Positions 1,492 to 21,573 of a stretch of 25,254 nt of DNA are shown in pieces. The first letter of the stretch is position 1. Each line of letters opens with the position of its first letter. The translations under genes were made by a program, and so were the position numbers. This DNA is from a virus. The stretch lies in the IMG/VR virus record IMGVR_UViG_3300030101_002866, positions 1 through 25,254 of that record; one strand, given 5' to 3'. Under the pieces are notes generated by a model that was not told the DNA's origin, did no database searches, and saw only the letters and a list, made by a program, of their open reading frames with translations.

Positions 1492-1826
1492 TATATCTTC
1501 ATAAAATTATTATCGAAAATATACTGCTCGACTTCATTAATATCTTTGTCCTGCTTATCCGCCTTATACCAAGTTCCATCTTTCAGTAACTCTATGTAAG
1601 CTCCGCTAATGTACGCCATTACATTCGTGGTGTCATCGTGCAATGTGTCTCCTTGAAAATTGTTTACAAAGTCAATACGACTTAACAATCTACCCGTGTC
1701 TTTGAAGACACTAATAGTAAATTCTTTCTCTTTGTCTGCATATTGTTGCATCCTTTGGATGTAATAGGTATCGGGCTTGGCTCGTAATTTTTCTGCCGTT
1801 GCCTCCTTTAAATAAATTGATTTCAT
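1491..1826 (-). CDS. Hypothetical 111-aa protein; carries an internal palindrome copy
   Basis: Soluble protein starting MKSIYLKEATAEKLRAKPDT and ending FDNNFMKI; the pattern GAYIELLKDGTWYKADKQ is the most ordered-looking part. No family recognised. The stretch coding V-F-K-D-T (1696-1711) is an exact copy of the 16-bp palindrome that otherwise lies in spacers of this module. It is translationally coupled to the DUF1599-like gene (stop/start overlap at 1491). Confidence 0.7.
   Translation of the reverse strand: MKSIYLKEATAEKLRAKPDTYYIQRMQQYADKEKEFTISVFKDTGRLLSRIDFVNNFQGDTLHDDTTNVMAYISGAYIELLKDGTWYKADKQDKDINEVEQYIFDNNFMKI
1696..1711. repeat. 16-bp palindrome copy 1 (intragenic)
   Basis: Exact GTGTCTTTGAAGACAC (7-bp arms, TG centre) inside the 1491-1826 gene, read as V-F-K-D-T on the coding strand. 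Confidence 0.85.
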
Positions 1827-3317: not shown

Positions 3318-3602
3318 CTATAGATGTCCTCCTGTTTTTAGTTTGTCACAATCGTATCTCCATTCAGATTCTGAATCAGGTTCGTTCATACAAGAATTGT
3401 AATGTGAATTAGCATCAGCATCTGTTCCAAAGCCATATTCATATGTGGCTTTATCCATTGCCTCGTCTATTTTATCTACATATAAGTCCTCGTGTTCAAA
3501 CAGATAGTCAGTCAAATTGTCTTCTGTTATATTGTTTGGTACTTCTATTTCTACTTCTGCAAATTTGTGGTAGATACTTCTTTGTTGAATTTTTACTTTC
3601 AT
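3318..3602 (-). CDS. Hypothetical 94-aa acidic protein
   Basis: Start chosen at ATG 3602. Reading further upstream would run through the spacer hairpin at 3617-3642. The product begins MKVKIQQRSIYHKFAEVEIE and has an acidic body (TEDNLTDYLFEHEDLYVDKI) ending in HYNSCMNEPDSESEWRYDC. The N-terminal part looks like a beta strand pair followed by a helix. No family recognised. Confidence 0.66.
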   Translation of the reverse strand: MKVKIQQRSIYHKFAEVEIEVPNNITEDNLTDYLFEHEDLYVDKIDEAMDKATYEYGFGTDADANSHYNSCMNEPDSESEWRYDCDKLKTGGHL

Positions 3603-3616
3603 TTGATTTGATTTAT

Positions 3617-3642
3617 GAGCAGTGTCTTTGAAGACACCGCTC
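3617..3642 (-). repeat. Spacer hairpin with palindrome copy 2
   Basis: GTGTCTTTGAAGACAC (3622-3637) extended by GAGC/GCTC arms, giving an ~11-bp stem with one mismatch. It sits about 15 nt upstream of the ATG at 3602 and just after the stop of the amidotransferase fusion gene. On the minus strand no U-run follows, so it is not a simple terminator. The flanks (ATTAATCAG upstream, ACTGCTCATAAATC downstream) match copy 3 closely. No CUGAUGA...GAAA core is present, so it is not a ribozyme. Confidence 0.75.
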
Positions 3643-3657
3643 TGATTAATATTTATT

Positions 3658-4725
3658 TTAACAATACTCGCTATTGATTTCATCTTTGGTATACTCCGCT
3701 CCACATCCTACACATTGGTAGTTATCTGATATGCCATCGTGTACCAAGTCATTGAAACAAGCAGTGCAGTATGGAGAACTGCTCTCCACATCACAATCAA
3801 AGTCTAACTCTACTTGTCTGTCATCGACTACGATTGGCTCATCGAAAGTGAATGGTCGGTAGCTATACTTTGGTCTTTGGTATTCGTAAGACTCAGTATG
3901 ATTCTTACCATTCCATCTACCCTCTTCTTGTGGATTGAAATAAACCCAACACATCAACTCTCTGTCTTTGACGATGATAGGAATTTGCTTTCGCTTGTAC
4001 CATCTTGGATGTCCTTCTAACCCATCTATGCTCTTTAGATTGGCATCGCTGACTTTGAACACATCAACTTTTACATTGTGTCCTTTGCCTTTCTTTTCGA
4101 ATAGGTAAGGTAGTCCATCAACTACCAAAGGATACTTGTCCTTTGTCTTTCCATTACCGAGATGTTTTGATGAGGTAAGGTAAGTGTAGTAGTTACCAAA
4201 CCCTTTCTTCAGTGTTCCATACACTGCGATAAGATTGTCTTGTAACACATTACCTTTAGAGTACCACACTCCATCTTTCTTTACCCAATTCAACTTGTTG
4301 TAGATTTGGAATGTTCTGTTGCGAGTATTGATAGATACAAACCTTGCTTCAAACTTCTGTAGCTGACTCGCCCAAGTATGTCGTGGTGTCTTGCCAAGTC
4401 TGATAGCTAAGTCTTCAGTGTCTGTCATTCGCTCACTGCCATATCCTTGTGCAGTTCCATTCATCATCAACAACTCATCTTTGTTGTATCCACATCTGAA
4501 TGGATGAGTATTCTCTTTACAGATTCTACCAATGGTTGCATACCTAAAGTGTGCAATGTATGGTCTGTCTGTATTGAGCAACTGATACTCTTTTGATTTG
4601 TGATAGCTGACCTTGAAAGTGTCGAGCCATACGATTCCCAATCCATGAGGATTGATTTTTGCGGATGTTTTAAGAACTTCTGTCGGCACATCCTTGCCTT
4701 TCTGTTTAATAATAATGATACACAT
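3658..4725 (-). CDS. Class-II glutamine amidotransferase / gamma-glutamylcyclotransferase / zinc-ribbon fusion (355 aa)
   Basis: Domain 1 (about residues 1-160) reads as an Ntn-type glutamine amidotransferase. Cys2 directly follows Met1 (MCIIIIKQKG), with NPHGLGIVW, IAHFRYATIG around Arg61 and MNGTAQGYG...TDTEDL, equivalent to the HNG...SDTE segment. Domain 2 (about 164-262) is AIG2/GGCT-like: AVYGTLKKG at 168-175, KYPLVVDGLPYL, then IDGLEGHPRWYKR with candidate catalytic Glu237. Domain 3 is a C-terminal zinc ribbon, Cys320-x2-Cys323 and Cys338-x2-Cys341. Both enzyme types act on gamma-glutamyl/amide bonds. Together with the amidoligase nearby they match the amidoligase-linked phage gene sets described by the Aravind group; substrate unknown. 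Confidence 0.8.
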   Translation of the reverse strand: MCIIIIKQKGKDVPTEVLKTSAKINPHGLGIVWLDTFKVSYHKSKEYQLLNTDRPYIAHFRYATIGRICKENTHPFRCGYNKDELLMMNGTAQGYGSERMTDTEDLAIRLGKTPRHTWASQLQKFEARFVSINTRNRTFQIYNKLNWVKKDGVWYSKGNVLQDNLIAVYGTLKKGFGNYYTYLTSSKHLGNGKTKDKYPLVVDGLPYLFEKKGKGHNVKVDVFKVSDANLKSIDGLEGHPRWYKRKQIPIIVKDRELMCWVYFNPQEEGRWNGKNHTESYEYQRPKYSYRPFTFDEPIVVDDRQVELDFDCDVESSSPYCTACFNDLVHDGISDNYQCVGCGAEYTKDEINSEYC

Positions 4726-4740
4726 AGTGTTTCGATTTAT

Positions 4741-4770
4741 GTAGCAGTGTCTTTGAAGACACAGAACTAC
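4741..4770 (-). repeat. Leader hairpin with palindrome copy 3
   Basis: GTGTCTTTGAAGACAC at 4747-4762, framed by GTAG/CTAC arms (4741-4744 and 4767-4770). It lies in the leader between the promoter at 4791-4822 and the ATG at 4725. Sequence on both sides is nearly the same as around copy 2 (ATTAATCAG ... ACTGCT(A)CATAAATC), so the two spacers share ancestry. No ribozyme core is present. Confidence 0.75.
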
Positions 4771-4832: not shown

Positions 4833-4994
4833 CTATCTACTGACAACTGCAGTAAATTTTTCTCGAAGAATCCACTTGTACTTTCCGATGTTCTCGTTGT
4901 ACACTCTGTCGATTGCTTCCCATTTCGTATAAGCAGGTACGACTTTGATTTGTCGCCCTGCATACCTGACCTTAAAGTATTTCTGTCTTTCCAT
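4833..4994 (-). CDS. Small basic hypothetical protein (53 aa)
   Basis: ATG 4994 overlaps the TAA of the upstream gene by one base (TAATG), and the frame runs to TAG at 4833-4835. The product MERQKYFKVRYAGRQIKVVP...KYKWILREKFTAVVSR is Lys/Arg-rich with alternating hydrophobics, suggesting a small beta-alpha domain. It was chosen over an overlapping reading in another frame because of the start/stop coupling and its composition. Function unknown. Confidence 0.65.
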   Translation of the reverse strand: MERQKYFKVRYAGRQIKVVPAYTKWEAIDRVYNENIGKYKWILREKFTAVVSR

Positions 4995-5344
4995 TACTTC
5001 TCGTTTTGATTAACAACTTTGCCGTCTACCATTCTCTCAACTCCGATTATCTTATGTCCCTTTCGACACATATAGCTATACCAATTCTCGAAATGCTTTT
5101 CGTTGTTAAAGTCTTTGACATTGGTTCCATAGTTACCATACACAGATTTAATTGTGATGCAGTATGTTACTTTCTCTTGCGGTTTGTAGTCCAACTTGAA
5201 CTGCTCCATCTTTTCGTGGATATTCTTACCGCTATAGTCCTTGTAGTTACAAGGAAAGTCTACAAGTTTGCTATTAAAGTTTGAAGAGTAAACTTGTGTA
5301 AATGATTTGACTGCTTCATCAGTCCATTCGAATTTAGTTTCCAT
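4994..5344 (-). CDS. Hypothetical 116-aa protein downstream of a hammerhead ribozyme
   Basis: The start is ATG 5344 (METKFEWTDEAVKSFTQVYS); a longer in-frame reading would pass through the ribozyme at 5364-5427 and is rejected. The middle contains QEKVTYCITIKSVYGNYG and the end has FENWYSYMCRKGHKIIGVER. It is soluble. No family recognised. If the ribozyme cleaves, its mRNA would begin with a 25-nt leader carrying a 5'-hydroxyl. Confidence 0.68.
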   Translation of the reverse strand: METKFEWTDEAVKSFTQVYSSNFNSKLVDFPCNYKDYSGKNIHEKMEQFKLDYKPQEKVTYCITIKSVYGNYGTNVKDFNNEKHFENWYSYMCRKGHKIIGVERMVDGKVVNQNEK

Positions 5345-5363: not shown

Positions 5364-5427
5364 GACATAGAGAGCAGTGTCTTTGAAGACACCACCCTTT
5401 CGTTCATTGAGAACTCATCAGTATGCC
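5364..5427 (-). ncRNA. Type I hammerhead ribozyme (HHR3), palindrome copy 4 as stem III
   Basis: Read on the minus strand from 5427: stem I strand GGCAUA, core CUGAUGA (5421-5415), stem II GUUC-UCAAU-GAAC (perfect 4 bp), core GAAA (5401-5398), a long stem III in which GGGUGGUGUCUU pairs through AAGACACUGCUCU around a CA loop (13 bp counting A15.1-U16.1, with three G-U pairs), C17, then UAUGUC pairing back to GGCAUA (6 bp, one G-U). All invariant core nucleotides are present. Predicted cleavage is after C17, between 5370 and 5369. The 5' end overlaps the TAG of the TM-protein gene and cleavage would lie 25 nt before ATG 5344. Confidence 0.85.
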
Positions 5428-5672: not shown

Positions 5673-5724
5673 TCTGTTTCGACCTTTCGGTCATCATCAG
5701 GATAGGCACACACCTATCGACAGA
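5673..5724 (-). ncRNA. Type III hammerhead ribozyme (HHR2)
   Basis: Minus strand from 5724: stem III strand UCUG, U16.1, C17, then stem I GAUAGG-UGUGUG-CCUAUC (6 bp), core CUGAUGA (5700-5694), one extra U, stem II GACC-GAAA-GGUC (4 bp, GAAA tetraloop), core GAAA (5680-5677), and CAGA closing stem III with UCUG. Predicted cleavage is between 5719 and 5718, after GUC. Stem III is open, so the ribozyme body would stay on the 70-nt leader of the TM-protein gene (ATG 5648). The only departure from the textbook fold is one unpaired base between A9 and stem II. Confidence 0.85.
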
Positions 5725-5760
5725 AAGCAGTTTTACATCTTGCTTAGGATGAGATAGAAC

Positions 5761-6759
5761 TCAGAAATAAAACTCTTCTTTGAACTTTCTTACATCAGTG
5801 TATTCGTTTGGTGTGTAACCTCTCTTGTAACACCCTCTACGACCACCAAACTGATAGGTTAACTCTCTATCATTACTCCACCATCCCTCAAACCATCCGA
5901 CCATCTCTAAGTCCATCTTACTACCATTGATGACTTTCTGCATCTTCTTAGCTAAAGCAATAGTCTTTGCAACTTTCTCAGCATCGTTGTTGAACATCGA
6001 TAATAAGATTGGCTTTACTGCATTACAGAAATGGTGTAGTGATGAATTTTGCTTGTTCACTGCGAAATCAATCAACTGATAAAAGAACTCGTATCTGCGA
6101 ATCGTTTGCTTCACTGATGTGAATCTTGATGGAACTCTGAACTCTACAACTCCATCGCCATCTAAAGTTTTGTAGTTAGCAATCGTGTACTTTGTACTCC
6201 ACTCTGCAGATGTGTCCATAGTGATGTTACCTCTGCAAAAGTAATTGTTCACTCTGTGTCTGTAGATGGCATAAACTAAACCACTGAACTTCTTCATTCT
6301 GTCAGATAACTCTCTACCACTCATATCCTTAACTCCCAATGTAATGTGACCACCACATTTTCTGTTAGATGGGCTGAACTCATCGTTAATTATTTTCTTA
6401 GCTTGGTGGAACATATTGAACACTTTCGTTCTCCACATTGATTTGTCTACCAATGGTAAGATGTGAGTAACTGCCTCAGCACCACAACTACCATCGTGTT
6501 CAAATCCACATAACAGAGGATACTCTTGAACTGCACTCCTATGAAATCTGTTCTTCTCGAACTCCATTCCGATTGTGAATATACTTGAAAAATCATCAGC
6601 CACATTTACTCTTGCACTACTCGGTAGACCATTGATGTCCACTGCTTCTGCTTTGTTCAGTTTGTATGGATGTGGCTTACTTCCATAGCTTGAGATTCTA
6701 CCTCTTGAAGACTCGTTGTGAATCTCGAACTGAACTCCTTGTTGATTTAAATTTCTCAT
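5761..6759 (-). CDS. Putative COOH-NH2 amidoligase (glutamine-synthetase-like fold), 332 aa
   Basis: Signature segments in order: TIGMEFEKNR (Glu66/Glu68 region), CGFEHDGSCGAEAVTHILPL at 84-103, KCGGHITLG at 134-142 and DGVVEFRVPSR near residues 200-212. The set GxExE, DGSxxxEAVT, CGxHhxxG and VEFR is what is seen in the ATP-dependent amidoligases with a GS-like fold that join amines to carboxylates. Those enzymes are known to occur beside GAT-II and GGCT/AIG2 proteins, as here. The substrate could be a peptide, the cell wall or a protein tail. Flanked 5' by HHR1 and 3' by HHR2. Confidence 0.78.
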   Translation of the reverse strand: MRNLNQQGVQFEIHNESSRGRISSYGSKPHPYKLNKAEAVDINGLPSSARVNVADDFSSIFTIGMEFEKNRFHRSAVQEYPLLCGFEHDGSCGAEAVTHILPLVDKSMWRTKVFNMFHQAKKIINDEFSPSNRKCGGHITLGVKDMSGRELSDRMKKFSGLVYAIYRHRVNNYFCRGNITMDTSAEWSTKYTIANYKTLDGDGVVEFRVPSRFTSVKQTIRRYEFFYQLIDFAVNKQNSSLHHFCNAVKPILLSMFNNDAEKVAKTIALAKKMQKVINGSKMDLEMVGWFEGWWSNDRELTYQFGGRRGCYKRGYTPNEYTDVRKFKEEFYF

Positions 6760-6783: not shown

Positions 6784-6835
6784 TCTGTTTCGTCCTTTCG
6801 GTACTCATCAGCACAGACACTCATCTGTGGACAGA
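6784..6835 (-). ncRNA. Type III hammerhead ribozyme (HHR1)
   Basis: Minus strand from 6835: stem III strand UCUG, U16.1, C17, stem I CACAG-AUGAGUGU-CUGUG (5 bp), core CUGAUGA (6811-6805), stem II GUACC-GAAA-GGAC (four pairs with one bulged A), core GAAA (6791-6788), then CAGA pairing with UCUG. Predicted cleavage is between 6830 and 6829 after GUC, 70 nt upstream of the amidoligase ATG at 6759. From CUGAUGA to the closing CAGA it matches HHR2 at nearly every position, and the one stem II change differs together with its partner, while the stem I sequences differ. This is the pattern expected of two functional relatives. Confidence 0.85.
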
Positions 6836-6861
6836 GGATAGTGTCTTTGAAGACACTACCC
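6836..6861 (-). repeat. Hairpin with palindrome copy 5, abutting HHR1
   Basis: GTGTCTTTGAAGACAC at 6841-6856 extended to a 12-bp stem (GGAUA/UACCC side with one G-U pair). It ends exactly where the stem III strand of HHR1 begins. On the minus strand it is preceded by CAAAGGGTAG, close to the CGAAAGGGTGG of HHR3, suggesting it derives from the same type I stem III. After HHR1 cleavage it would lie a few bases from the new 3' end of the upstream mRNA. Confidence 0.8.
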
Positions 6862-6869
6862 TTTGTGAT

Positions 6870-7496
6870 TTAGATTTCTCTTGCTATATCTCTCATAGTG
6901 TTAAACATTTTCATCAGAGATTCATCGATGTCGATTTCTAACTCACCATTGATTGAGATTCCGCTCTCACTAAGTCTTACAGAGTAACCCTTTTCCCCAT
7001 TTACACCATCCTTAGCGATGCTGAATGTAGCATAAGTTTTCTCTCTTGCAACTTCGTTATCCTCTGTACCGCTCTCTTCGTTCTTAGCATACTTCAGTAA
7101 CGCTTCGATACTTCTCTGTACATCTTCGCCATTATTCTCTGCTCTTGTACACTCTCTCTTGAACTTCGTTACCACAGATGATTGCTCTATCTGTAGCTTA
7201 CCCGCTTTGTTCATCTTGTAACCGAATGACTTCTGCCATCCGAATACTCTGTTGAAGAATACTTCGGTATTGTTCCATTCGATACCCTCATCTTCTAACT
7301 GAGTCTTTGTCTCAGCTTTGTTAAACCATTCTAACGATTGGCTAACTAACTTCGCTAACTTCAGTGATTTGTCGAACTTGTTCTTCTTCGCATCAGATAC
7401 TTCAGTGATTAGATTCTCGATTGTAGCAAAGTTTACTTGGCTACGAACTGATGGCAGTGCTAAAAAGTCTGCCTCGATTTGCATTAAATTTCTCAT
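6870..7496 (-). CDS. Hypothetical 208-aa protein, first gene of the ribozyme-containing operon
   Basis: Helical N-terminal two thirds (AKKNKFDKSLKLAKLVSQSL, EWNNTEVFFNRVFGWQKSFG, VVTKFKRECTRAENNG, RSIEALLKYAKNEE) and a beta-rich C-terminal part (YATFSIAKDG, YSVRLSESGISING, ELEIDIDES). No family recognised. The N-terminus MRNLMQ resembles that of the amidoligase (MRNLNQ), and both start regions share ATGAGAAATTTAA. It is driven by the promoter at 7558-7588 through a ~55-nt leader with a small GAGGA/TCCTC hairpin. Confidence 0.7.
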   Translation of the reverse strand: MRNLMQIEADFLALPSVRSQVNFATIENLITEVSDAKKNKFDKSLKLAKLVSQSLEWFNKAETKTQLEDEGIEWNNTEVFFNRVFGWQKSFGYKMNKAGKLQIEQSSVVTKFKRECTRAENNGEDVQRSIEALLKYAKNEESGTEDNEVAREKTYATFSIAKDGVNGEKGYSVRLSESGISINGELEIDIDESLMKMFNTMRDIAREI

Positions 7497-8665: not shown

Positions 8666-10267
8666 ATGCAACAAGGATTCACTCCGAAAGAACTTCACTT
8701 TTCTGATGAAGGTAGAACCAAACTCATTAGTGGTATAAATAAAATAGCTGCCGCAGTAAAATCAACTTTAGGTCCAAGAGGTAACACAGTGCTTATTGAA
8801 TCACCGGAACACCTTCACGGTATAACCGTAACTAAGGATGGTGTAACAGTGGCTAAATCTATTTCATTATTAGACCCGGTTGAGAACCTTGCGGTTAGGA
8901 TGATGAAAGAGGCAGCAGACAGAACTGCTTCCGCAGCCGGTGATGGAACAACAACCGCTATTGTATTAGCTGAAGCATTAGTTAATGCAGGAACCGAATT
9001 GATTGACGACAATCGAACCGAAGTGTTAAGACACATTGTAGAAGAAACCAAACAGATATCGAAGTCGCTAAAAGTAAAAGGTAAGAAACTTGATTCCAAA
9101 AGACTTCGTGATGTAGCTATTATATCTGCGAATAATGACAAGCAGATTGGAGACATCATTGCTGATGTATATGAAAGCGTAGGTAGTGATGGTGTAGTTA
9201 CAGTAGAAAAAAGTAAAACCTCATCTACTTATTATGAAACCACAAAAGGTATCAAAGTAAAAAGAGGATATGCCTCCAACCTATTTATCAATGACCAAAA
9301 GCGTGATGAGTGTGTCTTCGAAGACACTTATGTATTGGTTTGTGATACAGAGATAAATAACATCTTACAAATAGAGAACATCTTGAAACCAATTATCAAT
9401 GAAGGTAAAAAATTATTAATGATTGCTCATTGCTCACAGAATGTAACAAATACATTAGCAGCTAATGTAATTAAGAACGGATTAAAAATTTGTACAATAC
9501 AACCACCTGACTTTGGATATAGACAACACGAGCTGATGCAGGATATCGCAGTTAGCGTGGGTGCAAAGTATTTCAGCGAGAAAACAGGCGATGACTTGAG
9601 TTTGATTAATTTCAACGATTTGGGTCACTGTGCTAAGGTGATAGTTAGCCGGGACTCAACGGTCATCGTTAAAGATGATAATGAAACATCTGAAGAAGTA
9701 AAAGAAAGAGTAACACAACTTCAAGAAGCTCATAAAAATACTAAGCAGAAAGAAGATAAAGAATTTATAAACCAACGTATAGCTTCGCTATCAGGCGGTA
9801 TAGGTGTGGTATATGTGGGAGGTAATACAGACCTTGAACAAAAAGAACTGTATGATAGAGTGGATGATGCGGTATGTGCAGTTCGCTCTGCACTTGAAGA
9901 AGGTATACTACCCGGAGGTGGATTATCACTATATAATTTTCATAAAAGCTATACAGTAAAAGAAGCAGGAGAAAAAGACTACGCAAAAAAAACTGCTTAC
10001 GCAGTTTTAGCTGAAGCGTTAAAGTCACCACTTTATCAGATATTAGAAAATGCAGGATTAGATGCTGATAGAGTTTACGATGATTGCAAAGGAGCACTTT
10101 ACGGTTACGATGTAAAAAAAGAAAAGTACGGTTACCTGATGACACTCGGAGTCATAGACCCCGTGAAAGTCACAAGACAAGCACTGCAGAATGCAGTATC
10201 AGTAGCGGTTACTATTTTATCAACCAATGCTATCGTGACTATGGCACGTAGCTATGAAACAAAATAA
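8666..10267 (+). CDS. groEL: GroEL-like chaperonin (Cpn60), 533 aa
   Basis: Full-length group I chaperonin that folds proteins in an ATP-driven ring with a Cpn10 lid. ATP-site motifs are intact: TLGPRG (34-39), TKDGVTVAK with Asp58 (E. coli Asp52), GDGTTTA (92-98), RVDDAV with Asp401 (Asp398), EEGILPGGG (E. coli EEGVVAGGG) and IDPVKVTR with Asp498 (Asp495). The apical domain is recognisable (RGYASNLFIN; PDFGYRQ where bacteria have PGFGDRR). The C-terminus ends ARSYETK and lacks the GGM-repeat tail. It starts at ATG 8666 behind a good promoter. The next gene overlaps the stop (TAATG). It probably folds a phage virion protein or replaces host GroEL. Confidence 0.93.
   Translation: MQQGFTPKELHFSDEGRTKLISGINKIAAAVKSTLGPRGNTVLIESPEHLHGITVTKDGVTVAKSISLLDPVENLAVRMMKEAADRTASAAGDGTTTAIVLAEALVNAGTELIDDNRTEVLRHIVEETKQISKSLKVKGKKLDSKRLRDVAIISANNDKQIGDIIADVYESVGSDGVVTVEKSKTSSTYYETTKGIKVKRGYASNLFINDQKRDECVFEDTYVLVCDTEINNILQIENILKPIINEGKKLLMIAHCSQNVTNTLAANVIKNGLKICTIQPPDFGYRQHELMQDIAVSVGAKYFSEKTGDDLSLINFNDLGHCAKVIVSRDSTVIVKDDNETSEEVKERVTQLQEAHKNTKQKEDKEFINQRIASLSGGIGVVYVGGNTDLEQKELYDRVDDAVCAVRSALEEGILPGGGLSLYNFHKSYTVKEAGEKDYAKKTAYAVLAEALKSPLYQILENAGLDADRVYDDCKGALYGYDVKKEKYGYLMTLGVIDPVKVTRQALQNAVSVAVTILSTNAIVTMARSYETK
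9312..9327. repeat. 16-bp palindrome copy 7 (inside groEL)
   Basis: GTGTCTTCGAAGACAC, here a perfect 16-bp palindrome, encoding V-F-E-D-T in the apical domain. It differs from the main form by one centre base. Confidence 0.75.
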
Positions 10268-16925: not shown

Positions 16926-18290
16926 ATGGCTAAAATTTCTACATATATCATTGATAGTACACCCCAACTAACTGACAAAGTTATTGGAACTGATGTAAAC
17001 GATAATGACATAACCAAAAATTATCTAATTGGTGATATTGTAGCTTTAGTCCCATCCCCAACTTTGTCTCCAACAAAAATGTTTTATGGAGACGCTGCTT
17101 CTTTAGCTGCTGAAACCTCAACACTAACATACATAGTAGGGGGTTCAGGTATAGTTGCAGAAGATACTGTTGTAATGAGCGGTACTCTATTGGCTGATGT
17201 ATGTAGCATTAACAGTGTTACATCTGTATTGGTTGGTAAAAGAGTTCTTTCACAACAAAGTGGAATTGCAAATTCAGTGGCTATTGGACAAGACATTTGT
17301 GATTCAGGAGCTAATAATTGTGTAGACAATGTATTGATTGGAAAAGAAATGTTATCTGCAGCCGCAGACTCATTTACAAAAAATGTATTGATTGGAAGTA
17401 AAGTATTAAATCAATCGTCACAACAAATTGATTCTAACACTGTAATTGGATATGAAGCAGGTCAAGCATTAGACGTACCTCTTTCTGCTAACATATTTAT
17501 TGGTGAGGAAGCTGCTAAACTTGGTGGTCTTAGTGGACAGAATTTAACTACTAACATTGCTATAGGGCAACAAGCCGCATTAAATTTAGGTAATTCAGGT
17601 AACAATGCACCAACAAATAACATTGCTATTGGTACTAATGCAGGTAAAGCAAACAGTGGTAATAACAATATTCATATAGGAACCAATAGCGGAGTATCAG
17701 CTAACTTAGGATTCTTTAATGTAGGGTTAGGTGCTAATGCTTTAACGAGTCAAGTTGGCGGAGACTTTAATGTGGCTATAGGTAATGATGCTTTAGAACA
17801 ATTACAAACCGGAACTACTAATACTGCGGTTGGGAAAGCTGCAGGTTCAACAGTAGTAGGATTTACTAATACTACCAACTTAGGTCATAACTCTCAAGCA
17901 CAAGCAGACAATGAAGTTGTTTTAGGAGATAATAATGTAACAACACTTAGATGTAATACACAAGTTATTTCAGGTCTTTCAGATTTAAGAGACAAGGATA
18001 ATATTGAAGATTTGTCTTTAGGGTTAGAGTTTATTATGGATTTAGACCCTGTGACTTGGGATTGGGATAGAAGAGATGGTTCAATGGAGGGTAAAAAAGA
18101 CTCAGGTTTTGTAGCTCAAGAAATAGATGAAGTTGTTTCACAGTGGGAAGCTGAAGAAATCTTACCAACATTAGTAAACAAAAATAATCCTGATGCTTGG
18201 GAAGTTGGTAATGCAGCTTTGATACCTGTATTAGTAAAAGCTATACAAGAATTAAAAGCAGAACTTGACGCTTGTAAAGCGGAAAAGTAA
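16926..18290 (+). CDS. Tail fibre with YadA-like repeats and S74 intramolecular chaperone domain (454 aa)
   Basis: N-terminal attachment segment MAKISTYIIDSTPQLTDKVI then VNDNDITKNYLIGDIVALVP, typical of flavobacterial phage fibres. Residues about 110-340 are a repeated trimeric-autotransporter-like motif (NVLIGKEML, NIAIGQQAA, NIAIGTNAG, VAIGNDALE, AVGKAAG). The C-terminus is a peptidase S74 (endosialidase chaperone) domain: SDLRDKDNI with the self-cleavage pair Ser352/Lys357, SGFVAQEIDEV, and LIPVLVKAIQELKAEL as the terminal coiled coil. The domain helps trimerise the fibre and then cuts itself off before Ser352. Confidence 0.88.
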   Translation: MAKISTYIIDSTPQLTDKVIGTDVNDNDITKNYLIGDIVALVPSPTLSPTKMFYGDAASLAAETSTLTYIVGGSGIVAEDTVVMSGTLLADVCSINSVTSVLVGKRVLSQQSGIANSVAIGQDICDSGANNCVDNVLIGKEMLSAAADSFTKNVLIGSKVLNQSSQQIDSNTVIGYEAGQALDVPLSANIFIGEEAAKLGGLSGQNLTTNIAIGQQAALNLGNSGNNAPTNNIAIGTNAGKANSGNNNIHIGTNSGVSANLGFFNVGLGANALTSQVGGDFNVAIGNDALEQLQTGTTNTAVGKAAGSTVVGFTNTTNLGHNSQAQADNEVVLGDNNVTTLRCNTQVISGLSDLRDKDNIEDLSLGLEFIMDLDPVTWDWDRRDGSMEGKKDSGFVAQEIDEVVSQWEAEEILPTLVNKNNPDAWEVGNAALIPVLVKAIQELKAELDACKAEK

Positions 18291-18529: not shown

Positions 18530-19092
18530 TGAAATCTATTTATCAGTTTATAGTTAGTCCTGTAAATAACAAGCGATATAACAACACTAAAAAAGTTGGT
18601 GATGTTGATTTAGTTATAAGTACGTCAGAAGAAAATCATACTACATCAAATCGTGAAGCAACGGTTATTGAGACTCCAATCAACTATAAGGGTCCTATTG
18701 AAAAAGGAGACACATTATTAGTACACCACAATGTTTTCAAGTTCTACAATGATATGTACGGCAAGAGACAAAGTGGAAGGAGCTTTCTCAAGGAGAATGT
18801 TTTTCTTATAGACAGTGAACAGTTTTTTGCTTATAAGAAAGACGGGGAATGGAATGGATATGACAGGTATTGTTTTTTAAAACCTGTTCCGGTAGAAGAA
18901 AGTTATATTTACAAACCCTTCAGTACAGAGCCTTTGATGGGAGAAGTAGTAATAATTAATCAAGGTTTAAAAGACAAAGGCGTAAAGGTTGGTGACAAAG
19001 TGTGTTACAAACCAAATCAAGAGTATCAATTTAAAGTGGACGACCAAACTCTATATAGATTGTATGACCACTGTATTACTTTAATTTTATGA
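18529..19092 (+). CDS. GroES-fold-like protein with two Cpn10-type halves (187 aa)
   Basis: The C-terminal half (114-187) reads like Cpn10: YCFLKPV (DRVLVKP), MGEVVIINQGLKDKGVKVGD (G-x-V-x-x-x-G...VKVGDxV), then FKVDDQTLYRLYDHCITLIL (xDGxxYxxLxExDILxxh). The N-terminal half (1-105) repeats the order: YQFIVSP, REATVIETP (44-50), IEKGDTLLVHHNVF (58-70), and VFLIDSEQFFAYK (91-103). So this looks like a tandem or swollen GroES-like protein. It may work with the viral GroEL or host GroEL like T4 gp31, or use the fold structurally. The call is by pattern; remote homology needs a profile search. Confidence 0.6.
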   Translation: MKSIYQFIVSPVNNKRYNNTKKVGDVDLVISTSEENHTTSNREATVIETPINYKGPIEKGDTLLVHHNVFKFYNDMYGKRQSGRSFLKENVFLIDSEQFFAYKKDGEWNGYDRYCFLKPVPVEESYIYKPFSTEPLMGEVVIINQGLKDKGVKVGDKVCYKPNQEYQFKVDDQTLYRLYDHCITLIL

Positions 19093-19364
19093 GTAAAGAA
19101 ATTAAATTAAGAATAATTGAAGCCGGAAATCAAGCGGTTGAACAACTAATAAAAGTTGCTAAAGAAAAAATTATAAAGCCTGACCCTGATGACGACCTTG
19201 CTGCAGACCGATTAAAGAATGCGGCAGCCACAAAAAAACTATGCATATTTGATGCATTTGAAATACTAAAAAGAATAGAAGAGGAAAGAGCGGCTTTAGA
19301 AGGAAATAATATAGACACCAAAGTAGATACTAAACAAGGATTTGCAGAACGAAGGTCAAAATAG
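19089..19364 (+). CDS. Putative small terminase-type helical protein (91 aa)
   Basis: MSKEIKLRIIEAGNQAVEQL, IKVAKEKIIKPDPDDDLAAD, then RLKNAAATKKLCIFDAFEIL and KRIEEERAALEG. Helical, charged, with a conserved-type KPDPDDDLAADRLKNAAATKKL segment. It sits directly before TerL, where small terminase subunits usually are, with the TerL start inside its 3' end. Function inferred from position; it is shorter than most TerS proteins. ATGA start overlap. Confidence 0.6.
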   Translation: MSKEIKLRIIEAGNQAVEQLIKVAKEKIIKPDPDDDLAADRLKNAAATKKLCIFDAFEILKRIEEERAALEGNNIDTKVDTKQGFAERRSK

Positions 19365-21573
19365 CATATTATACAAAGTTGTAAAAGACTATGTTCCTAA
19401 GAATGTTTTATCGAATAAAAATCGTAATCATTCTTGGTTGTATGGTTACAATGATAAGTACGATTTAATTGTTATTTCTAAGTCAGGTCAAATAGGAGAG
19501 ATACTATATATTTCAGGTCTTTACATAGCTTTACCGAAAGAACCTAAAGAGTGTCTTCAAAGACACTCCACCTCATCAGAACAATATTGGGAAAGGCAAG
19601 AGTTACCAAAACCTTTGAGTAAGATATCATCCATCTTTCAGTGGAATGAAATGCCATCTGAATTTAAATCAAGATGGGTGGATTATATAGAAGCTGAGTT
19701 TGACAACAGAGAGTTTGGTTTTTGGTTTATGAATAAAAGTAAACCAACTTACATTACAGGAGCTCACTATATGTATTTACAGTGGACTAATATTGATGTA
19801 GGATATCCTGAATACAGAGAAGCAAACAGAATATTATATATATTTTGGGAAGCATGTAAAGCAGACAAGAGAAGTTTTGGAATGATATATCTAAAGATTA
19901 GACGTTCAGGATTTTCTTTTATGTCTTCTTCTGAATGCGTCAACACAGGAACACTTGTAAAAGATTCTCGAGTTGGTATACTTTCTAAAACAGGTTCTGA
20001 TGCTAAGAAAATGTTTACAGATAAAGTTGTTCCAATTAACAGTAGACTTCCATTCTTTTTTAAACCAATTATGGATGGAATGGATAAACCTAAAACTGAA
20101 TTAGCTTATCGTGTACCTGCATCTAAGATTACCAAAAAGAATATGTATGATGTGGAGGAGGATGAAATAGAAGGGTTAGATACCACAATAGATTGGAAAA
20201 ATACAGATGACAACTCATATGATGGTGAAAAACTTCTGCTATTAGTTCACGATGAAAGTGGAAAATGGTTAAAACCAAATAACATATTAAATAATTGGCG
20301 TGTTACAAAAACTTGTTTACGATTAGGTAGTAGGATTATTGGTAAATGTATGATGGGTTCTACATCAAATGCTTTAGCAAAAGGTGGGGGAAACTTCAAG
20401 CAATTATTTTATGACTCTGATGTAATGAAGCGTAATGCAAACGGTCAAACAAAAACAGGATTGTATTCTTTATTTATTCCAATGGAATGGAATATGGAGG
20501 GGTTTATTGATAGGTATGGTCAACCCGTAATAGACGATGTGGTTGATAAAGTAAGGGGTATAGATGATGAGTATATAACACAGAGTGCGTTACAGTATTG
20601 GAATAACGAGGTAGAGTCATTAAAGCACGACCCTGATGCGTTGAATGAATATTATAGACAGTTTCCAAGAACAGAGTCTCACGCATTTAGAGATGAAAGT
20701 AAACAATCATTATTTAATCTTACTAAGATATATCAACAGATTGATTATAATGATGCAATGATTTCAGAACAACATTTAACAAGAGGTTCTTTTCATTGGG
20801 TTAACGGAATCAAAGATACTTCAGTTTATTTTACACCCGACAAAAGAGGAAGATTTATTATTACTTGGGTTCCGACCAAAGGAATCCAAAACAATATCTA
20901 TACCAAAAATGGTAAGAGATATCCCGGTAATGAACACATAGGTGCTTTTGGATGTGACTCATATGATATTAGTGGAACAGTAGGTGGTAAAGGTTCTAAT
21001 GGTGCACTACACGGACTTACTAAGTTTAGTATGGAAGAAGCACCAAGCAATGAGTTTTTTTTAGAATACATAGCAAGACCACAAACCGCAGAGATATTTT
21101 TTGAAGATGTTTTAATGGCTTGTGTATTTTATGGTATGCCAATACTTATAGAGAACAACAAGCCACGATTGTTATATCATTTCAAAAATAGAGGGTATAG
21201 AGGTTTCTGTATGAATCGTCCCGATAAACAATTTATCAAGCTATCAAAAAGTGAAAAAGAATTAGGAGGTATACCGAACTCAAGCGAAGATGTAAAACAA
21301 GCACACGCAGCAGCTATTGAATCCTACATAGAATCACACGTAGGATTATCACAAGATGGAGATATGAAATCAATGTATTTCAATCGTACATTAGAAGATT
21401 GGGCAAGGTTTGATATTAACAACAGAACTCAGTATGATGCTTCTATTAGCTCCGGATTAGCTATAATGGCGTGTCAAAAGCATTTATATATGCCTGAAAA
21501 AAAAGAGTCAAGAATTATGATTAACTTTGCAAGGTATACTAACGAGGGAAAATTAAGTCAGATAATTAGATGA
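19342..21573 (+). CDS. terL: Terminase large subunit (TerL), 743 aa
   Basis: DNA-packaging motor ATPase plus nuclease. An adenine/Walker A-like segment is KIRRSGFSFMSSSECV (the R-x-x-G-x-S variant), Walker B is LLLLVHDESGKW with Asp304-Glu305, and the coupling motif is MGSTSNALAKGG. The nuclease part has GAFGCDSYDISGT with metal ligand Asp539, PILIENNKPRLLYHF, and a C-terminal DVKQAHAAAIESYI region. The start is TTG 19342; no ATG occurs in frame for the first ~100 codons, and the frame is closed upstream at 19324. A palindrome copy lies at 19551-19566 inside it. Length fits the long TerL proteins of crAss-like and related Bacteroidetes phages. Confidence 0.9.
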   Translation: MQNEGQNSILYKVVKDYVPKNVLSNKNRNHSWLYGYNDKYDLIVISKSGQIGEILYISGLYIALPKEPKECLQRHSTSSEQYWERQELPKPLSKISSIFQWNEMPSEFKSRWVDYIEAEFDNREFGFWFMNKSKPTYITGAHYMYLQWTNIDVGYPEYREANRILYIFWEACKADKRSFGMIYLKIRRSGFSFMSSSECVNTGTLVKDSRVGILSKTGSDAKKMFTDKVVPINSRLPFFFKPIMDGMDKPKTELAYRVPASKITKKNMYDVEEDEIEGLDTTIDWKNTDDNSYDGEKLLLLVHDESGKWLKPNNILNNWRVTKTCLRLGSRIIGKCMMGSTSNALAKGGGNFKQLFYDSDVMKRNANGQTKTGLYSLFIPMEWNMEGFIDRYGQPVIDDVVDKVRGIDDEYITQSALQYWNNEVESLKHDPDALNEYYRQFPRTESHAFRDESKQSLFNLTKIYQQIDYNDAMISEQHLTRGSFHWVNGIKDTSVYFTPDKRGRFIITWVPTKGIQNNIYTKNGKRYPGNEHIGAFGCDSYDISGTVGGKGSNGALHGLTKFSMEEAPSNEFFLEYIARPQTAEIFFEDVLMACVFYGMPILIENNKPRLLYHFKNRGYRGFCMNRPDKQFIKLSKSEKELGGIPNSSEDVKQAHAAAIESYIESHVGLSQDGDMKSMYFNRTLEDWARFDINNRTQYDASISSGLAIMACQKHLYMPEKKESRIMINFARYTNEGKLSQIIR
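19549..19568. repeat. Palindrome copy 8 (inside terL), 20 bp
   Basis: GAGTGTCTTCAAAGACACTC: the 16-bp core in the opposite orientation to most copies, extended by two base pairs on each side, coding K-E-C-L-Q-R-H-S. Confidence 0.75.

Follow-up and report, generated by a model that had tools for sequence, protein, structure and literature searches.

The viral DNA analysed here, 25,254 bases that make up the whole of one IMG/VR virus record (IMGVR_UViG_3300030101_002866; hereafter the window), and the phage and bacterial contigs compared with it support the view that a predicted folded RNA lies exactly at the new 3' end that self-cleavage by hammerhead ribozymes (HHRs) would create, and that this placement recurs in many unrelated phages and with either ribozyme topology. 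Judged by sequence, the arrangement is real and widespread, and its putative 3'-terminal elements are of two kinds, a hairpin and a pseudoknot that we call motif M. The anatomy recurs, the terminal elements covary, a U-tract is generally lacking and the folded element changes position with the topology of the ribozyme. On balance we think that an intergenic module of this kind divides polycistronic phage transcripts into individual mRNAs and that the terminal structure serves the new 3' end.

Results

Three hammerhead ribozymes between genes of the window

The window holds three HHRs, all between minus-strand genes (Table 1). HHR1 and HHR2 can be assigned to type III, with a CUGAUGA...GAAA core, an NUH triplet, closed stems I and II and an open stem III, and HHR3 to type I, with the same core, closed stems II and III, an open stem I and a predicted cleavage site near its 3' edge. 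A first Rfam scan of the window gave no HHR at gathering score. HHR1 reached 35.7 bits (E 1.6e-5) against Hammerhead_3, under the gathering score of 48.5, and HHR2 and HHR3 were absent from the Rfam matches even at E<=5, so that their assignment rests on the core consensus and three paired stems. When the core was scrambled as a control for the HHR core search, no matches were obtained.

The palindrome before HHR1 occupies positions 6836-6861 of the minus strand, or 6835-6862 with an outer A-U pair counted. Folded alone, this hairpin gave -16.9 kcal/mol, with a 12-bp stem and a UCAA loop, followed by CUGUC. An intrinsic terminator, which needs a G+C-rich hairpin with a U-tract directly after it, was considered for this site and rejected, as CUGUC comes next instead. 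The same 17-nt palindrome serves both as the HHR1 hairpin and in stem III of HHR3. An earlier note on this DNA had claimed that cleavage by HHR1 leaves a product ending in the 12-bp palindrome hairpin and a short tail, and that HHR3 leaves the TM-protein mRNA ending in its palindromic stem III. Coordinates and predicted fold bear out the former and the sequence the latter, and all the ribozymes, cleavage sites and structures at new 3' ends that the note had proposed are real by sequence.

Table 1. Features of the window, in order along the minus strand where a strand is given; all positions are those of the window.
Feature	Position	Strand	Remarks
Upstream gene, 208 aa	6870..7496	-	No Pfam family; stop codon ends at 6870, hairpin 7 nt further on
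Hairpin, 12-13 bp	6835..6862	-	Predicted end of the 208-aa mRNA after HHR1 cleavage; holds GTGTCTTCAAAGACAC at 6841-6856
HHR1, type III hammerhead	6785..6834	-	Predicted cleavage between 6830 and 6829 (GUC)
Gene between HHR1 and HHR2, 332 aa	5761..6759	-	No Pfam family (ORF and Pfam search)
Motif M element, CAU-CCUAAGCA-AG-AUG-UAAAAC-UGCUU pseudoknot	5725..5751	-	Would end the upstream product after HHR2 cleavage
HHR2, type III hammerhead	5674..5723	-	Predicted cleavage between 5719 and 5718 (GUC)
Membrane-protein-like ORF (by sequence), 73 aa	5427..5648	-	Its UAG stop runs into stem I of HHR3 at the 5' edge
HHR3, type I hammerhead	5364..5427	-	Predicted cleavage between 5370 and 5369
HHR3 stem III, GGGUGGUGUC..GACACUGCUC	5372..5397	-	3'-terminal hairpin of the upstream product; GTGTCTTCAAAGACAC at 5377-5392
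Gene 3' of HHR3, starts METKFEW	4994..5344	-	No Pfam family (ORF and Pfam search)
Bare palindrome, no HHR	4747..4762	-	Just upstream of GGCT-domain gene 3658-4725
Bare palindrome, no HHR, GAGCGGTGTC..GACACTGCTC	3622..3637	-	Gap after GGCT-domain gene
Palindrome copy	1696-1711		Inside small minus-strand ORF
Palindrome copy, one mismatch	9312-9327		Inside GroEL ORF
Palindrome copy, exact	19551-19566		Inside terminase ORF

The 332-aa gene is presumably amidoligase-like. In the gene at 3658-4725, a weak match to a class-II glutamine amidotransferase that lies below the cut-off is followed by a gamma-glutamyl cyclotransferase domain (PF06094).

The terminase of the window shares 74% identity with that of the spring podovirus MW202828 and about 45% with those of Elemovirus, a genus of Flavobacterium phages; phages of Cellulophaga, Maribacter and Tenacibaculum match less well. 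The host of the window phage is therefore likely a member of the Bacteroidota. Neither the window operon nor the HHR1 region gave a useful BLAST match among phage records. MW202828, the nearest named relative by terminase, has no intergenic HHR with a paired stem II and one coding look-alike only, so these ribozymes come and go. Elemovirus elemoA, an isolated phage of Flavobacterium sp. BAL314, bears two hammerheads, one of type III (core 19089-19112, L626) and one of type I (core 17318-17341, L626), the latter starting at UAG as HHR3 of the window does. Upstream of the elemoA type III ribozyme there is weak structure only, which counts against a universal rule.

Folded RNA directly before type III hammerheads

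Fold energy (kcal/mol) of the 35 nt before the ribozyme was taken as the measure, with a threshold of -6 or below. Matches with an unpaired stem I, sites too near contig ends and near-duplicate upstream sequences (more than 70% identical; other cut-offs in some scripts) were dropped before counting. The HHR sets from viruses and genomes, like the motif M set, are samples among the matches listed and no census.

In set 1, obtained with a type III pattern in virus contigs (83 HHRs listed), the 35 nt before stem III had a mean of -11.1 kcal/mol, compared with -5.5 in dinucleotide shuffles, -2.4 downstream and, at eight more distant positions on the upstream side, -3.6 to -4.4; 15 false matches with an unpaired stem I averaged -3.8. 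Set 2 is independent and was found with a pattern with a different stem III. There, 51 of 60 HHRs among the matches listed reached -6 or lower, compared with 13-21 of 58-59 offset positions. Half of the chance matches in this set, which is richer in G+C than set 1, also did so (10/20), from which it follows that G+C-rich genomes give a background. In bacterial genome contigs the proportion was 16 of 18 listed HHRs, against 6-11 of 18 at offsets, and many of these contigs are titled Patescibacteria. Type III hammerheads with upstream hairpins were seen in contigs (L504-L621) titled Patescibacteria, Vogelbacteria, Nomurabacteria, Parcubacteria and Woesebacteria. Finally, 173 dereplicated virus type III HHRs among the matches listed, a set that takes in the majority of both earlier virus sets and cannot count as independent of either, had a mean of -11.0, with 121 at or below -6; elsewhere the means were about -4 (further upstream) and -2.7 (downstream), and 36-57 of 167-171 offset positions reached the threshold. 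A paired test on 167 of these HHRs gave p=2.6e-21.

The upstream hairpins differ in sequence from phage to phage, and their position is tightly set: the hairpin ended 0-2 nt from stem III in 50 of 57 listed cases of set 2, and the unpaired tail left by cleavage would measure 5-8 nt in 116 of 148 folded virus cases and 16 of 16 genome cases among the matches listed. Of 205 listed HHRs, 93 lay cleanly between two called same-strand genes, with medians of 33 nt between stop and HHR and 23 nt between HHR and start. The best window in the stretch from stop codon to HHR was at or below -6 in 99 of 114 cases, against 167 of 322 junctions without an HHR in the same loci.

The rule has exceptions. Neither a 35-nt hairpin nor motif M was found before 48 of the 173 listed HHRs; by eye, somewhat under half of these 48 have a longer hairpin within 70 nt and the rest nothing clear, and about 30 of the 173 show no convincing upstream structure even within 70 nt. 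Moreover, hairpins were not significantly more frequent where a same-strand gene lies just upstream than where none does (94/128 against 24/41, Fisher p=0.08). A role at the mRNA 3' end predicts a clear difference here, so this result counts against that role.

Two further sequences were noted before HHRs. One, recurrent and weakly folded (L027, L037, L052, L097, L104, L121), resembles CTATGGCAATCTCACGA.GYC.ATTTT.GRC.AATTT and is possibly another terminal structure. The other comprises long A+T-rich hairpins around ATATTTACTRGTAAATAT (L018, L040, L095, L097, L112, L121).

Motif M, a covarying pseudoknot after stop codons

The AAGCA/UGCUU element before HHR2 folds alone with only -2.4 kcal/mol, and pairing of CAU with AUG turns it into the putative motif M pseudoknot, which starts 9 nt past the stop codon ending at 5761. 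The small AAGCA/TGCTT hairpin that the earlier note had placed near the HHR2 end is thus right in position, but the plain weak hairpin gives way to the covarying pseudoknot. The window copy forms both pairings, CAU/AUG and AAGCA/UGCUU, but has UAAAAC and so misses the strict pattern, which is n3-CCURAGCA-WG-n3'-N-UAAAC-UGCUY with both helices. The pattern is that of an H-type pseudoknot, in which the trinucleotide ahead of CCU pairs into the loop.

A scan of virus contigs for CCTRAGCANNNNNNTAAACTGCTY yielded at least 126 copies, 117 once dereplicated. Among the matches listed, Watson-Crick pairs occurred in the stem in 115, 113 and 77 of 117 copies at positions 1, 2 and 3, including both A-U/U-A and G-C/C-G, and pairings in a shifted register were less frequent, at 6 to 53 of 117. 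On the 60 of these 117 copies that were aligned, stem A scored 0.473 for covariation, compared with 0.138 in shuffles, none of 500 reaching 0.473. Stem B is fixed by the search pattern except for its outer R-Y pair, and its constancy is therefore uninformative; a relaxed motif M with other stem B sequences was also tried and discarded, as it returned mostly background.

A same-strand gene ends within 200 nt upstream of motif M in 102 of the 117 listed copies, and in 26 of these 117 a TAA stands exactly 8 nt before the CCT. Copies are found in the named phages SIO1 (just past the stop codon of ribonucleotide reductase), crAss-like cr7_1 and phiEcoM-GJ1. Some (range L384-L503) adjoin tRNA genes (L391, L460, L503). 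Rfam 15 covariance models matched no family to motif M in 12 loci. At E<=5 the motif M stretch of the window gave no credible Rfam 15 match but two weak long sRNA matches far below gathering, one of 15.9 bits spanning the site (237-position model, gathering 128) and the other of 17.4 bits. No description of motif M was found in the literature covered, which took in few subscription journals and preprints, and a prior description is possible.

In loci found by motif M, CTGATGA occurred within 80 nt of 0 of the 126 listed copies, and in HHR-bearing loci 5 of 12 listed copies precede an HHR core (p=1e-9). Taken together, these counts suggest that motif M is a general phage element, positioned after stop codons, and that the ribozyme module takes it up at times. 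Look-alikes of motif M precede HHRs in L129, L130, L058, L074, L088 and L128. The L074 contig, which has an HHR, motif M and tRNAs, also has a GOLLD RNA match at 3417-3830 under gathering (85.4 against 150 bits).

The folded element moves with the cleavage site

In type I hammerheads the structure lies elsewhere. Among the dereplicated matches listed, the 35 nt before type I HHRs had a mean of -4.2, with 7 of 29 at or below -6. Stem III alone had a mean of -10.6 (25 of 29 listed), and for the final 35 nt of the product upstream of the cut the mean was -12.3 (27 of 29 listed). The stability of stem III is partly a selection effect, as only ribozymes with 4 bp or more in this stem had been accepted. 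Type I HHRs thus lack a preceding hairpin and have a folded stem III instead; where the cut shifts, the structure shifts with it. Within loci, the sharing of hairpins by type I and type III HHRs exceeded 2000 of 2000 permutations, with few of the 23 loci carrying the signal, and some hairpins are common to different phages rather than shared within one locus.

These data bear on the possibility that the upstream hairpin serves the ribozyme itself, by insulating a short open stem III from coding RNA or by stacking coaxially on it so that cleavage is faster. The spacing between hairpin and stem III is tight enough for stacking, and in these type III HHRs the stem is short, at about 4-5 bp. An insulator should, however, occur before type I HHRs too, where it is missing, and the hairpin can be replaced by an unrelated pseudoknot, so we regard a helper role as unlikely, though it is the rival that fares best. 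As an insulator that flanks any ribozyme, the hairpin is weakened as a candidate by the same type I HHRs.

Copies of the palindrome away from ribozymes

Six exact copies of the 16-mer GTGTCTTCAAAGACAC stand in the window, where about 1e-5 would be expected, and the reversed control has none. The minus strand carries five of the six, namely those of HHR1 and HHR3 and three without an HHR. Across 411 kb of related phages there are 112 GTGTC-N6-GACAC palindromes, many within called genes, and decoy palindromes have 0-1 copies in the same 411 kb; a chance origin is ruled out by the copy number against expectation, the reversed control and the decoys. In 34 palindrome-family hairpins before type III HHRs among the matches listed, stem positions 1-7 were paired in 34 of 34, and two-sided changes numbered 12 at stem position 7 and 15 at position 8. 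One relative (L369, 13561-13616) has an HHR, then a second bare palindrome hairpin, then a gene matching the one at window 4725; at the matching site the window has the bare palindrome alone.

The palindrome thus lacks specificity for ribozymes, and 77 of the 112 copies in related phages have no adjoining HHR. Together with the many copies in called genes, including those in the GroEL and terminase ORFs of the window, and the scarcity of decoys, this fits a phage-wide repeat or a protein-binding site (for a phage regulator or an RNA-binding protein, for example) to which ribozyme proximity is secondary. The upstream-hairpin rule nevertheless stands in the 136 HHRs left without the GTGTC/GACAC family, to which the window's own belong (paired test, p=4.6e-16), and hairpin sequence varies between phages; such a repeat or binding site is an improbable account of the rule.

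Absence of terminator anatomy

At least 5 T in the 8 nt past the hairpin were found in 10 of 148 virus and 3 of 16 genome cases among the matches listed, and with T runs this scarce the anatomy is not that of an intrinsic terminator. The lack of a U-tract fits the earlier suggestion that the ribozyme acts in place of a terminator. That the hairpin is itself an intrinsic terminator or attenuator, with the ribozyme merely trimming read-through RNA, is very improbable, since the ribozyme begins where the U-tract should be, even though the location past stop codons is where a terminator would stand and a few cases (e.g. L012) do join a hairpin to a T run.

Discussion

In the transcript-splitting module, the order would be stop codon, terminal structure, hammerhead ribozyme, ribosome-binding region and start codon. 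A long transcript would run through it, the last ribosome of the upstream gene would leave, and the hammerhead would then fold and cut; as the UAG stop overlaps stem I of HHR3, cutting there may wait for the last ribosome. Hammerhead chemistry leaves a cyclic phosphate on the upstream product. The upstream mRNA would hence end in a G+C-rich hairpin or a pseudoknot followed by a 5-8-nt tail with a 2',3'-cyclic phosphate, the ribozyme's own stem III being the terminal hairpin in type I. The downstream mRNA would carry a 5'-OH, and in type III the closed stem I would stand at its very start.

Such a 3' end should resist 3'-to-5' exonucleases. According to the available parts of the respective papers, PNPase requires a 3'-OH (PMC3014915) and RNase R a single-stranded 3' landing region (PMC2777011), so the end should last. 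The former source also describes RNase II and RNase R as indifferent to the kind of 3' terminus (PMC3014915), and against these two only the structure and the short tail could therefore help. From the anatomy of the module we infer cleavage in the host, exonuclease protection and the fate of both products, and the placement of the fold suggests that viruses obtain protected ends on their messages with neither terminator nor protein. A wider reading, which we offer tentatively, is that phages of many hosts and elements of Patescibacteria would produce protein-free 3' ends by a ribozyme and an exonuclease-blocking structure, and that motif M would be an undescribed pseudoknot family that also protects phage mRNA 3' ends without a ribozyme.

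With a structure at the new 3' end in both topologies, phage hammerheads would have a concrete and testable task, which is to divide one transcript into individual, stable mRNAs where no terminator acts. Motif M could serve generally to stabilise mRNA 3' ends and could be of practical use. The idea is testable in culture with elemoA, an isolated phage whose host is Flavobacterium sp. BAL314.

Comparison with known systems

In intrinsic terminators and REP-type 3' stem-loops, a stable stem-loop near the mRNA 3' end slows 3'-to-5' exonucleases. The stem-loop near the 3' end is common to those systems and to the present one, whereas here the end is predicted to be made by a ribozyme and to carry a cyclic phosphate and a 5-8-nt tail without a U-tract. 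The compact pseudoknot of motif M also has a likeness, by analogy only, to the exoribonuclease-resistant RNAs of RNA viruses as described in the part of that literature available; those RNAs block the 5'-to-3' enzyme Xrn1, whereas motif M sits in phage mRNAs past stop codons.

A close precedent is the work of Perreault et al. 2011 (PMC3088659), the available text of which reports hammerheads of several types, clustered between prophage genes, and self-cleavage of some of them in vitro and in E. coli. It proposes that phage hammerheads cut long transcripts into operon- or gene-length mRNAs, and calls their functions unclear as of 2011. In that available text no structure adjoining the cleavage site is mentioned, and the word terminator occurs 0 times in the main text. 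Intergenic phage hammerheads that cut polycistronic RNA are thus common to that account and ours; what would be added here, although it may have been described elsewhere, is the structure at the 3' terminus, be it hairpin or pseudoknot, and its change of place between ribozyme types.
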